A stretch of DNA of 64,000 nucleotides from Rhodospirillales bacterium (lineage in GTDB: Bacteria; Pseudomonadota; Alphaproteobacteria; BOG-932; Roseiterribacteraceae), in NCBI GenBank assembly GCA_003165335.1, contig PLTD01000127.1, forward strand, positions 62,001-126,000. Direction: 5' to 3'. The position numbers and the translations under genes are program-made. The notes below the pieces were generated by a model. That model did not search any database. It had not been told where the DNA came from and saw only the letters and a program-made list of their open reading frames with translations. Numbering within the stretch: position 1 is the first letter of the stretch; each line of letters opens with the position of its first letter. Below, one piece after another: positions 54,073-56,795 of the stretch.

Positions 54073-54085
54073 AAAGCTTCTATGA

Positions 54086-54784
54086 TCAAGAGGCGGCGCT
54101 TGAAGAATCAGCCCCATTGATATCGCTGGCCTCGCGATTCGACCGGAAAAGCGTGGGTGCGCCTGCGCGCACCCGGCGCAGCAGCGCCAGACCGATAAGA
54201 CCACTGCCCAAGATCGTTAAGGTAGCCGGCTCCGGTACGCTTTGAGCATAGACTGTGTTTGCGGCGATGTTCCCTGTGCCACCCGCCGGACCGATAACGT
54301 CGGACGAGAAATAATAGCCACCCGCGTTGGCGACGAAGTCGCTGATTTTAATCCCCGTCGAATCGACGACGCTGAAGGTAAGCGGACCGGGATTGGCGTT
54401 GCTCGAGCCCGGACCGCAGCCTGGGCAGTCGATGACATAGCCGAAATTGCCATAGGGCGTGTTCGACGCCCCATCGTCTGAGGCAATAAAAATATTGCTC
54501 AATGACGGCGGAATGCCGATGGCGATAGCTGTCTCCAGATCGAGGTTGAATGCGAAGGCGTTGTGCGACCCGCTGGTCGAAATGAAGTCGGTATTCGCGG
54601 CCAGCGCAACGGTAACGTCGACCTCGTTGGCACCGTTCTGGGTCAAGGTCACCGTACCCAATGTTCCGGTTCCGATGCTCGGGCTCGAGATCAGGGTGAA
54701 GGATGCCGTATCATAGGCCTGTGCGCTTGCCAGAGACACGAAAATGGCCGCGACTGCGATCGATAATTTAAGAATTTGCTTCAT
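54086..54784 (-). CDS. PEP-CTERM domain protein
   Basis: A 232-aa exported protein: signal peptide (residues 1-23, ASAQA-YD), a beta-rich, Gly/Asn/Ser-rich body with a DCPGCGPG turn, and a PEP-CTERM sorting signal: VPEP at 183-186, hydrophobic helix 188-202, and basic LLRRVRA at 201-207. In bacteria with exosortase this signal is cut and the protein is linked to the extracellular polysaccharide matrix. Unusually, 26 polar residues follow the basic cluster. A consensus sigma-54 promoter precedes it. No exosortase gene is in the window. Confidence 0.85.
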   Translation of the reverse strand: MKQILKLSIAVAAIFVSLASAQAYDTASFTLISSPSIGTGTLGTVTLTQNGANEVDVTVALAANTDFISTSGSHNAFAFNLDLETAIAIGIPPSLSNIFIASDDGASNTPYGNFGYVIDCPGCGPGSSNANPGPLTFSVVDSTGIKISDFVANAGGYYFSSDVIGPAGGTGNIAANTVYAQSVPEPATLTILGSGLIGLALLRRVRAGAPTLFRSNREASDINGADSSSAAS

Positions 54785-54826
54785 TTGCGCTCTCGGGATG
54801 CATCGGTGTTCGATTGCCTCCCCAAC

Positions 54827-54842
54827 AGCAAAACCCGTGCCA
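54827..54842 (-). promoter_or_regulatory. sigma-54 promoter of the PEP-CTERM gene
   Basis: On the minus strand TGGCACGGGTTTTGCT matches the sigma-54 consensus TGGCACG-N4-TTGCW at every defined position, with -24 GG and -12 GC spaced correctly. Transcription would begin about 32 bases before the ATG. Several exosortase systems control PEP-CTERM genes through sigma-54 and the PrsK-PrsR two-component pair, which fits. Confidence 0.85.
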
Positions 54843-54879
54843 AGCGGTAGCGCCCTGAAAAATCAATAAAAGTTTAGTA

Positions 54880-54941
54880 TGTTTGACTGAAACAACGCGA
54901 AAGCCTCGCAAAAAGCCAGGGTGGCCGTCGCATTTTGCGAC
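54880..54941 (-). promoter_or_regulatory. dyads upstream of the sigma-54 promoter, possible enhancer sites
   Basis: GTCGCA-TTT-TGCGAC (54927-54941) is a perfect 15-base dyad about 112-126 bases upstream of the predicted start site, the usual distance for an NtrC-family activator. A second dyad TGTTT-N5-AAACA (54880-54894) lies nearer. The CGCAAAA half-site recurs nearby (around 54907 and 54962). Confidence 0.55.
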
Positions 54942-54977
54942 TGACCATGCGGGATCCCGACCGCAAAATGGCTCAGT

Positions 54978-55150
54978 GCTCTCCGAAAATCGCCGTTCCT
55001 ACCCTTACATGGGTGGCACCGGCAGCGATGGCGGCGGGATAATCGCCGCTCATCCCCTGGTTCAGAATCGGCAAATGGTGAGCCTTTGCCAAGGCAGCCA
55101 TTTCATTGAAATAGGGCGTCGGGTCCTGCCGGCCGGCGGGATGCACATCA
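54978..55150 (-). pseudogene. duplicated 3' fragment of yggS (copy A)
   Basis: This 173-base segment matches 56105-56278 inside the intact yggS with three substitutions and one single-base deletion (about 98% identity). It encodes the last ~57 residues (PTPYFNEMAALAKAHHL to VGTAIFGE), has a different stop, and its frame breaks at the deletion. There is no start region, so it is a non-functional remnant. With copy B it forms a direct repeat around the Sel1 gene. Confidence 0.9.
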
Positions 55151-55320
55151 TTTTGGCGGCGTGATCGACATTCCTTATAGTTAATTGGTATTGCCAACGG
55201 CTTGATTGGGATCACTGCCTGTCCTTGCCGGTCAGGGAACTCCCTGCCTGTGGCAGGTTTGTCCGGCCGATTCGAACTGCTGACCGCATCACATTCAATG
55301 CAACTCTTGTCGAGGGCGCT
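55151..55320. other. non-coding gap between the yggS fragment and the Sel1 gene
   Basis: 170 bases downstream of the yggS fragment. A 6-bp hairpin CCTGCC-TGT-GGCAGG (55243-55257) is visible. No coding frame is convincing; the promoter of the Sel1 gene must lie here. Confidence 0.5.
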
Positions 55321-56103
55321 ATGAAGTTTTCAGTGATCGCGGTCATTACGACACTGCTATTGGCCGGTTGTATCGCTCAACCGTCACCCCAACCACAACT
55401 GCAACCGATGCGGCTTGCCTGTCCCGACGGCGGAGCCGCTCAACTCTCTGCCGGAATAGCGGCTTACAACAGTCGCGACCTGCAGGCCGCTTTTCGTAAT
55501 CTGCGGACATCGGCGGATTGCGGCAATCAGGATGCACAGGTGAACCTGGGATACATCTATGCGCGCGGCGAAGTTGGCGGTCAGCCCAATCAGCAGGAGG
55601 CTCTTCACCTATACAAACTGTCGGCTGCTCAGGGAAACGGCGAAGGCATGAATGCTATCGGATACAAATATCAGTTTGGCACCGGCGTTGCGCCGGATAT
55701 AGGCACGGCAGTGCGTTGGTATTGTAAGGCGGTCGCAAAAGGCAACGGTAGGGCGCTGAACAATCTTGCGATCCTTTACGATCATGGAATAGGTGTCCCG
55801 CAAAATAGTGATGCCGCCCGGGATTTGTGGCGACAAGCGGGTGAACACGGCCATTCGAACGGCTTTTTTAATTTGGGGCTCAGCTACATCCAAGGGCCAG
55901 GCAAGCTTGACCCCAAACAAGGGGAGCAGTTTCTGATTCAGGCAGCACGGGCTGGGAACATGCCGGCACAAGTCGCCCTACGCCGTAGCGGTTACAAGGA
56001 GCCGCTGCCTCCGTCCGTGGACGAAAGTCGTGCCATGGTGATCCAGCCCGTGAATCCGTCCCCGGGTCATGCTCCTGTCTGCGACGGCGCGCTTATCAGT
56101 TAG
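55321..56103 (+). CDS. Sel1-repeat lipoprotein
   Basis: A 260-aa lipoprotein: lipobox LLAGC (Cys17), a Pro/Gln linker (residues 19-30), then four to five Sel1/TPR-like repeats of ~36 residues (AQVNLGYIYARGEVGGQPNQ, GMNAIGYKYQFGTGVAPDIG, ALNNLAILYDHGIGVPQNSD, GFFNLGLSYIQGPGKLDPKQ) and a Pro-rich tail. Sel1 proteins are scaffolds for protein complexes. GC content is lower than in neighbours: I counted 30/60 and 32/60 in two 60-base lines. It lies between two direct copies of the yggS 3' end and its stop overlaps the yggS stop, so it may be recently acquired. Confidence 0.86.
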   Translation: MKFSVIAVITTLLLAGCIAQPSPQPQLQPMRLACPDGGAAQLSAGIAAYNSRDLQAAFRNLRTSADCGNQDAQVNLGYIYARGEVGGQPNQQEALHLYKLSAAQGNGEGMNAIGYKYQFGTGVAPDIGTAVRWYCKAVAKGNGRALNNLAILYDHGIGVPQNSDAARDLWRQAGEHGHSNGFFNLGLSYIQGPGKLDPKQGEQFLIQAARAGNMPAQVALRRSGYKEPLPPSVDESRAMVIQPVNPSPGHAPVCDGALIS

Positions 56104-56795
56104 CGCTCTCCGAAAATCGCCGTTCCTACCCTTACATGGGTGGCACCCGCAGCGATGGCGGCGGGATAATCGCCGCTCATCCCCTGACTCAGAATCGGCA
56201 AATGGTGAGCCTTTGCCAAGGCAGCCATTTCATTGAAATAGGGCGTCGGGTCCTGCCCGGCCGGCGGGATGCACATCAGACCGACGATCGGCAGGCCATA
56301 ATCGTCCCGTGACAGGGTCAGCAGCGCACTTAGGTTCTCGGGAGCGACGCCGGCCTTCTGCGACTCGTTGCCGATATTCACCTGGATATAACACTGCGGA
56401 TGGCGGCCGGAGCGTTGCATCTCCTCTGCCAGTTTCTCAGCCAGCTTGGGCCGGTCAACTGTTTCGATGACATCGAACAAGGCTACCGCGTCTTTGACCT
56501 TATTGGTTTGCAGCGGCCCGATAAGATGCAGGACCAAGTCGGGAAACTCCGCCCGCAACTGCGGAAATTTCGATGCCGCTTCCTGGACACGATTTTCGCC
56601 GAAAATCCTCTGGCCTGCCGACAGTGCCTGCCGGACGGCGTCGATGCTGTGGTTTTTGCTGACCGCCACCAGCGCGACGGAATGCGGATCGCGACCGATT
56701 GCCTTGGCCGCCTCGACGATTTTTTCCCGCACTTCCTTTAGATGGGTGACGGTGGCGTCGGCGGCAGATTCCGTGGCAAGATCGTTTCTATCCAT
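56100..56795 (-). CDS. yggS: YggS-family PLP homeostasis protein
   Basis: A 231-aa PLP-binding protein (PLPBP) that buffers pyridoxal phosphate and affects amino-acid pools; it has no known catalysis. It has the alanine-racemase-like barrel, with PLP Lys in VALVAVSKNHS and later MQRSGRHPQCYIQVNIGNESQKAG and LMCIPP, SQGMSGDYPAAIAAGATHVRVGTAIFGER at the end. The start codon overlaps the start codon of the divergent porin gene on the other strand. Its 3' part is duplicated upstream of the Sel1 gene. Confidence 0.94.
   Translation of the reverse strand: MDRNDLATESAADATVTHLKEVREKIVEAAKAIGRDPHSVALVAVSKNHSIDAVRQALSAGQRIFGENRVQEAASKFPQLRAEFPDLVLHLIGPLQTNKVKDAVALFDVIETVDRPKLAEKLAEEMQRSGRHPQCYIQVNIGNESQKAGVAPENLSALLTLSRDDYGLPIVGLMCIPPAGQDPTPYFNEMAALAKAHHLPILSQGMSGDYPAAIAAGATHVRVGTAIFGER
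56105..56278. repeat. direct repeat copy B (3' end of intact yggS)
   Basis: 174 bases identical to 54978-55150 except for three substitutions and one indel. Both copies have the same orientation, 954 bases apart. No terminal inverted repeats, integrase or transposase are seen near either copy. Confidence 0.9.

Follow-up and report, generated by a model that had tools for sequence, protein, structure and literature searches.

Organization of the locus

The window, by which we mean the whole stretch of 64,000 nucleotides that was analysed, contains a locus with the gene order lrp, ldt (L,D-transpeptidase), a PEP-CTERM gene, a copy of the yggS 3' end, a Sel1-repeat gene and the intact yggS (Table 1). 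The PEP-CTERM gene is probably a single-gene unit. Its 232-residue ORF matches PF07589 with 26.2 bits (curated cut-off 20.7) and TIGR02595 with a score of 18 (curated cut-off 16), and the product shows the PEP motif, the hydrophobic stretch and the C-terminal basic cluster, together with a stretch judged by eye to be a signal peptide. The last 26 residues (54086-54166) extend past the matched sorting segment, which is atypical and differs from the homologs; this end of the protein lies near an insertion boundary. With 57.7%, the G+C content of the gene is similar to that of the other PEP-CTERM genes in the genome (57-59%).

Table 1. Positions of the features discussed in the text, counted from the first letter of the window.
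Feature	Position	Strand	Basis
PEP-CTERM protein, 232 aa, with N-terminal signal-peptide-like stretch	54086..54784	-	ORF list; PF07589 and TIGR02595 over cut-off
PEP-CTERM sorting segment VPEPATLTILGSGLIGLALLRRVRA, residues 182-206	54167..54241	-	PF07589 residues 182-204; TIGR02595 residues 183-206
Sigma-54 -24/-12 promoter element TGGCACGGGTTTTGCT	54827..54842	-	exact TGGCACN5TTGCW match; 13 in genome vs 4 for control
RNA-foldable stretch, nested hairpins ending UUUUUG, terminator-like, contains the dyad	54907..54974	-	immediately behind the yggS fragment's stop codon
Perfect dyad GTCGCATTTTGCGAC (GTCGCA-TTT-TGCGAC)	54927..54941	.	unique in genome; chance-level inverted repeat; enhancer role unsupported
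Partial second yggS 3' end with a one-base deletion	54975..55150	-	97% identical to 56102-56278 (self-BLAST)
Block of PEP-CTERM gene, promoter, yggS fragment and Sel1-repeat gene	54073..56099	.	absent in congener G002

Between the convergent ldt and yggS genes there are approximately 2 kb in this genome. The lrp, ldt, yggS and porin-like genes of the congener G002 are collinear with those of the window (69-87% protein identity), and its ldt and yggS stop codons overlap, with zero nucleotides in between. The two stops nearly touch in G005, while G003 and G004 carry approximately 2.0 kb and 0.45 kb of other genes at this place, and none of these intervening genes matches the window PEP-CTERM protein. 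The block from 54073 to 56099, which is missing from all four of these relatives, is therefore most simply regarded as an insertion in this lineage. The yggS 3' end occurs here as a direct repeat of 177 bp, with 97% identity between its copies (54975-55150 and 56102-56278). The two copies flank the Sel1-repeat gene (55321-56103), which is lipoprotein-like, and together these parts form a small insertion structure of an unusual kind.

No ortholog of the PEP-CTERM protein was found by a protein search in 96 relatives, by a profile search in 398 genomes (the two sets overlap slightly and together comprise about 490 genomes) or in plasmids. Its closest homologs, two proteins with 43% and 39% identity, are encoded on GTDB contigs of a betaproteobacterial MAG and a Terriglobia MAG, and neither has a sigma-54-like site upstream. 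The PEP-CTERM gene is thus specific to this lineage.

The sigma-54 promoter element

An exact sigma-54 -24/-12 element, TGGCACGGGTTTTGCT, lies on the minus strand at 54842-54827. It is intergenic, has the same orientation as the PEP-CTERM gene, contains the GG-N10-GC core within TGGCACG-N4-TTGCW and ends 42 nt before the ATG at 54784. With the GC of the element at -13/-12, the predicted transcription start would fall at approximately 54816. According to a pattern search, TGGCACGGGTTTTGCT is the sole exact TGGCACN5TTGCW match in the window, and a promoter scan found no sigma-70-like promoter upstream of the PEP-CTERM gene.

In the draft assembly (5.19 Mb, 265 contigs) the pattern has 13 exact matches, compared with 4 for the reversed-pattern control. 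The control gives a chance rate of about 4e-7 matches per position, which for one given 200-nt upstream region and the correct strand amounts to a chance of about 1e-4. Because so few matches are expected, we do not regard TGGCACGGGTTTTGCT as a product of chance. Exact sites precede two PEP-CTERM genes, namely the window gene and a gene on contig C213. Other perfect sites precede a P-II-like gene and a PrkA-like kinase gene, whose identities were judged from their translations; P-II genes are familiar sigma-54 targets. All 13 exact sites (L002-L014) are located on the minus strand of their own contigs (control, 2/2), a bias that is probably due to chance (about 2e-4, two-sided).

Sorting and control genes of the genome

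The genome encodes one RpoN (TIGR02395, 424.9 bits, cut-off 277.35). The genes prsK, prsR and prsT, which score over the cut-offs of TIGR02916, TIGR02915 and TIGR02917, respectively, are adjacent on one strand and belong to the run epsB2-prsK-prsR-prsT on contig C50. Exosortase A (XrtA; TIGR03109, 280 bits, cut-off 208) is encoded on contig C144, in a run that includes the XrtA-associated exopolysaccharide families for export, chain length, kinase, ATPase and deacetylase. Twelve PEP-CTERM ORFs exceed the Pfam cut-off in the genome, and a thirteenth was recovered via its operator. The AAA+ activator domain is covered by only four of the proteins that match the PrsR model, namely PrsR, two encoded on C204 and one encoded on C109. 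To judge from their neighbours and domain layout, the other three would be NtrC, whose gene adjoins that of an NtrB-like kinase, NtrX, and PspF, whose gene has a pspA-like neighbour. Because the draft assembly is 95.6% complete, a further sigma-54 activator could be missing from it.

The canonical PrsR operator

An alignment of the sequences upstream of the other PEP-CTERM genes with sigma-54 sites gave a shared box, GTCNGAANNNTTTACA. It has four exact copies in the genome, every one of them (4/4) before a PEP-CTERM gene, and a copy with one mismatch stands before a fifth. At these five genes the gaps between the box and the sigma-54-like site are 61, 62, 62, 62 and 64 nt. Haft et al. described in 2006 a motif 1 ending in TTTACA, a spacer with a mean of 62.8 nt and a sigma-54 motif 2 (PMC1569441), and the five boxes with their sigma-54 sites reproduce all three. 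A sixth PEP-CTERM gene (L019) has a looser version of the box, as seen in TGTAAACAATATTTACA and TGGCGTTATTATTGCA. This gene lies on contig C42; its operator, TGTAAA-CAATA-TTTACA (L019, approximately 791-876), is symmetrical and is followed approximately 50 nt further on by a weak sigma-54 site.

The window gene lacks this arrangement. No PrsR box within one mismatch of the genome consensus is present upstream of it, no canonical box occurs elsewhere in the window, and the motif 1 of Haft et al., which ends in TTTACA and stands about 63 nt in front of a sigma-54 site, is absent. In the 300 nt upstream of the gene the best score of a position weight matrix for the box is 5.7, compared with a 95th percentile of 5.72 for random 300-nt sequences; the five boxes reach 25-32, although this comparison is lenient because the matrix was built from those boxes.

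A first-pass annotation of this DNA had placed the sigma-54 consensus site, with the correct letters and coordinates, before a stand-alone PEP-CTERM gene, and the family models confirm the gene with scores over their curated cut-offs. It had further supposed that the exosortase and the regulator lie elsewhere in the genome, and it had suggested a search for further sigma-54 sites before PEP-CTERM genes. The genome search recovered XrtA, PrsK, PrsR, PrsT and RpoN, and such sites were found as an exact match on C213 and, together with a box, as sigma-54-like sites at five genes.

Proposed activation of the promoter and possible roles of the dyad

On the basis of the sequence, the sigma-54 promoter is probably functional and of the known PEP-CTERM type. 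RpoN polymerase would bind at 54842-54827, be opened by an enhancer-binding protein and start transcription near 54816; the PEP-CTERM protein would then be exported by Sec and have its tail processed by exosortase A, which is encoded on another contig. Which protein could open the promoter? PrsR, driven by PrsK, is the best candidate: the gene encodes a PEP-CTERM protein, and the genome yielded no more than four sigma-54 activators (PrsR and the NtrC-like, NtrX-like and PspF-like proteins). We propose this assignment tentatively; PrsR would then act via a site that strongly departs from the canonical operator.

The perfect 15-base dyad upstream of the promoter, which the first-pass annotation had taken for the activator site, is indeed present, but taken alone it is no better than chance expectation. 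When the 201-nt upstream region is shuffled by dinucleotides, 36% of the shuffled sequences contain a perfect inverted repeat that has a loop of at most 10 and arms of at least 6, and 23% contain one with a loop of at most 5. Most likely the dyad is not a dedicated enhancer: it would be a palindrome that arose by chance or would belong to a structure that ends transcription behind the yggS fragment, and chance or a terminator-like function explains it no less well than an enhancer function.

It is possible, if somewhat doubtful, that the dyad belongs to an end structure of yggS that has been left behind the yggS fragment. The dyad starts approximately 32 nt past the stop codon of this fragment, and as minus-strand RNA it folds as the central part of a longer hairpin extended by a G-U pair (GGUC...GGCC), around which an outer stem begins at the stop codon and ends in UUUUUG. 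However, the folding excess is modest: the stretch 54907-54974 folds with -27.6 kcal/mol (z -1.8), and a slightly longer piece with -33.4 kcal/mol (z -2.0). Moreover, the U run does not directly follow the stem of the dyad, a terminator scan gives a different, weaker hairpin, and the congener has no such sequence after yggS.

Because the gene is lineage-specific, the promoter may have been imported or may lie idle. In that case gene and sigma-54 site would have been transferred together, and the promoter would now be a relic that is not activated, the operator of the resident PrsR being missing. The absence of the gene in the congener and three further relatives, the occurrence of its nearest homologs in distant MAGs of other groups and the lack of a PrsR box are consistent with this, but the sigma-54 match is still perfect and the ORF intact, which argues against long disuse, and the G+C content does not set the gene apart from the other PEP-CTERM genes. 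We consider such a relic unlikely.

It appears improbable that the dyad serves PrsR or another NtrC-type activator as an enhancer and marks the operator of the regulon. Its perfect 6+3+6 symmetry and its place speak in favor: the 112-126 nt that the first-pass annotation had given as its distance upstream of the start hold when counted from the predicted transcription start, with the centre near -118 in the usual enhancer position, but not from the ATG, which is 143-157 nt away. Compared with the canonical boxes, it lies approximately 22 bp, or two helical turns, farther from the promoter. On the other hand, the operator of the regulon is GTCNGAANNNTTTACA, which the window gene does not have, and the dyad has one exact copy in the genome; an operator would be expected to recur upstream of co-regulated sigma-54 genes, but no other PEP-CTERM or sigma-54 gene was found to have it. 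Genome-wide there are 22 sites with one mismatch, compared with 16 for the control (the pattern is palindromic and was counted on each strand). Of the 22 sites, 13 were examined, and at none of these does a strong sigma-54 site lie within approximately 185 nt. These counts led us to reject the dyad as a genome-wide operator. We also rejected it as a degenerate PrsR box, from which it differs at 5 of the 11 defined bases and in its spacing to the sigma-54 site (84 nt vs 61-64 nt). A possible second copy of the dyad, CGCAAAATGCGAC near the PEP-CTERM gene of L024, spans an ATG after a ribosome-binding-like GGAG and was taken as a coincidence.

There is a slight chance that the PEP-CTERM gene, newly acquired, came under sigma-54 control via its strong promoter and that the GTCGCA dyad serves as a non-canonical operator, recognized by another activator or by a PrsR of altered specificity; if true, one matrix-protein gene would be controlled separately from the set. 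Finally, it is very improbable that the sigma-54 match is fortuitous and the gene transcribed otherwise: chance alone would give approximately 4 of the 13 exact matches of the genome, and several of the 13 appear to lie inside genes, but the expectation for this upstream region is far lower, the match has the right strand and distance before a PEP-CTERM gene, the genome has a complete sigma-54 and PrsKR system, and no sigma-70-like promoter was found.

Comparison with known systems

This type of regulation is already known; it was published in 2006 and later tested experimentally. Haft et al. reported the regulon in 13 proteobacterial species including Rhodospirillum rubrum, with a mean distance of 71 nt (range 23-221) from the sigma-54 site to the start codon (PMC1569441). 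For pepA, a PEP-CTERM gene of Aquincola tertiaricarbonis RN12, RpoN1 dependence and the start site were shown experimentally (PMC9850573). The view of the first-pass annotation that such a regulon is little described is therefore largely wrong for Proteobacteria generally.

What the present analysis adds is a draft genome for which the collection contains few close relatives and which carries a complete XrtA/PrsKRT system and at least five canonical promoters composed of PrsR box and sigma-54 site. It also indicates that a textbook sigma-54 promoter can stand before a lineage-specific PEP-CTERM gene even where the usual operator is missing. The locus is a neat test case for the promoter requirements of PrsR, and the general picture is unchanged.

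The window gene differs from the PEP-CTERM/EpsH regulon (PMC1569441) in that it has no motif 1; instead, a dyad unrelated to this motif lies 84 nt in front of its sigma-54 site. It also differs from pepA of A. tertiaricarbonis, which adjoins prsT and for which an enhancer of the published type was reported (PMC9850573), whereas the window gene stands alone and such an enhancer is absent. With pepA it shares the PEP-CTERM product, the TGGCAC -24 element and a genome containing prsK-prsR, prsT and epsB2. As in the PEP-CTERM/EpsH regulon (PMC1569441), a single-gene PEP-CTERM unit lies behind an upstream sigma-54 site (42 nt here), PrsK, PrsR, PrsT and the exosortase are encoded in the same genome, and five other PEP-CTERM genes carry the motif ending in TTTACA approximately 62 nt before their sigma-54 site.
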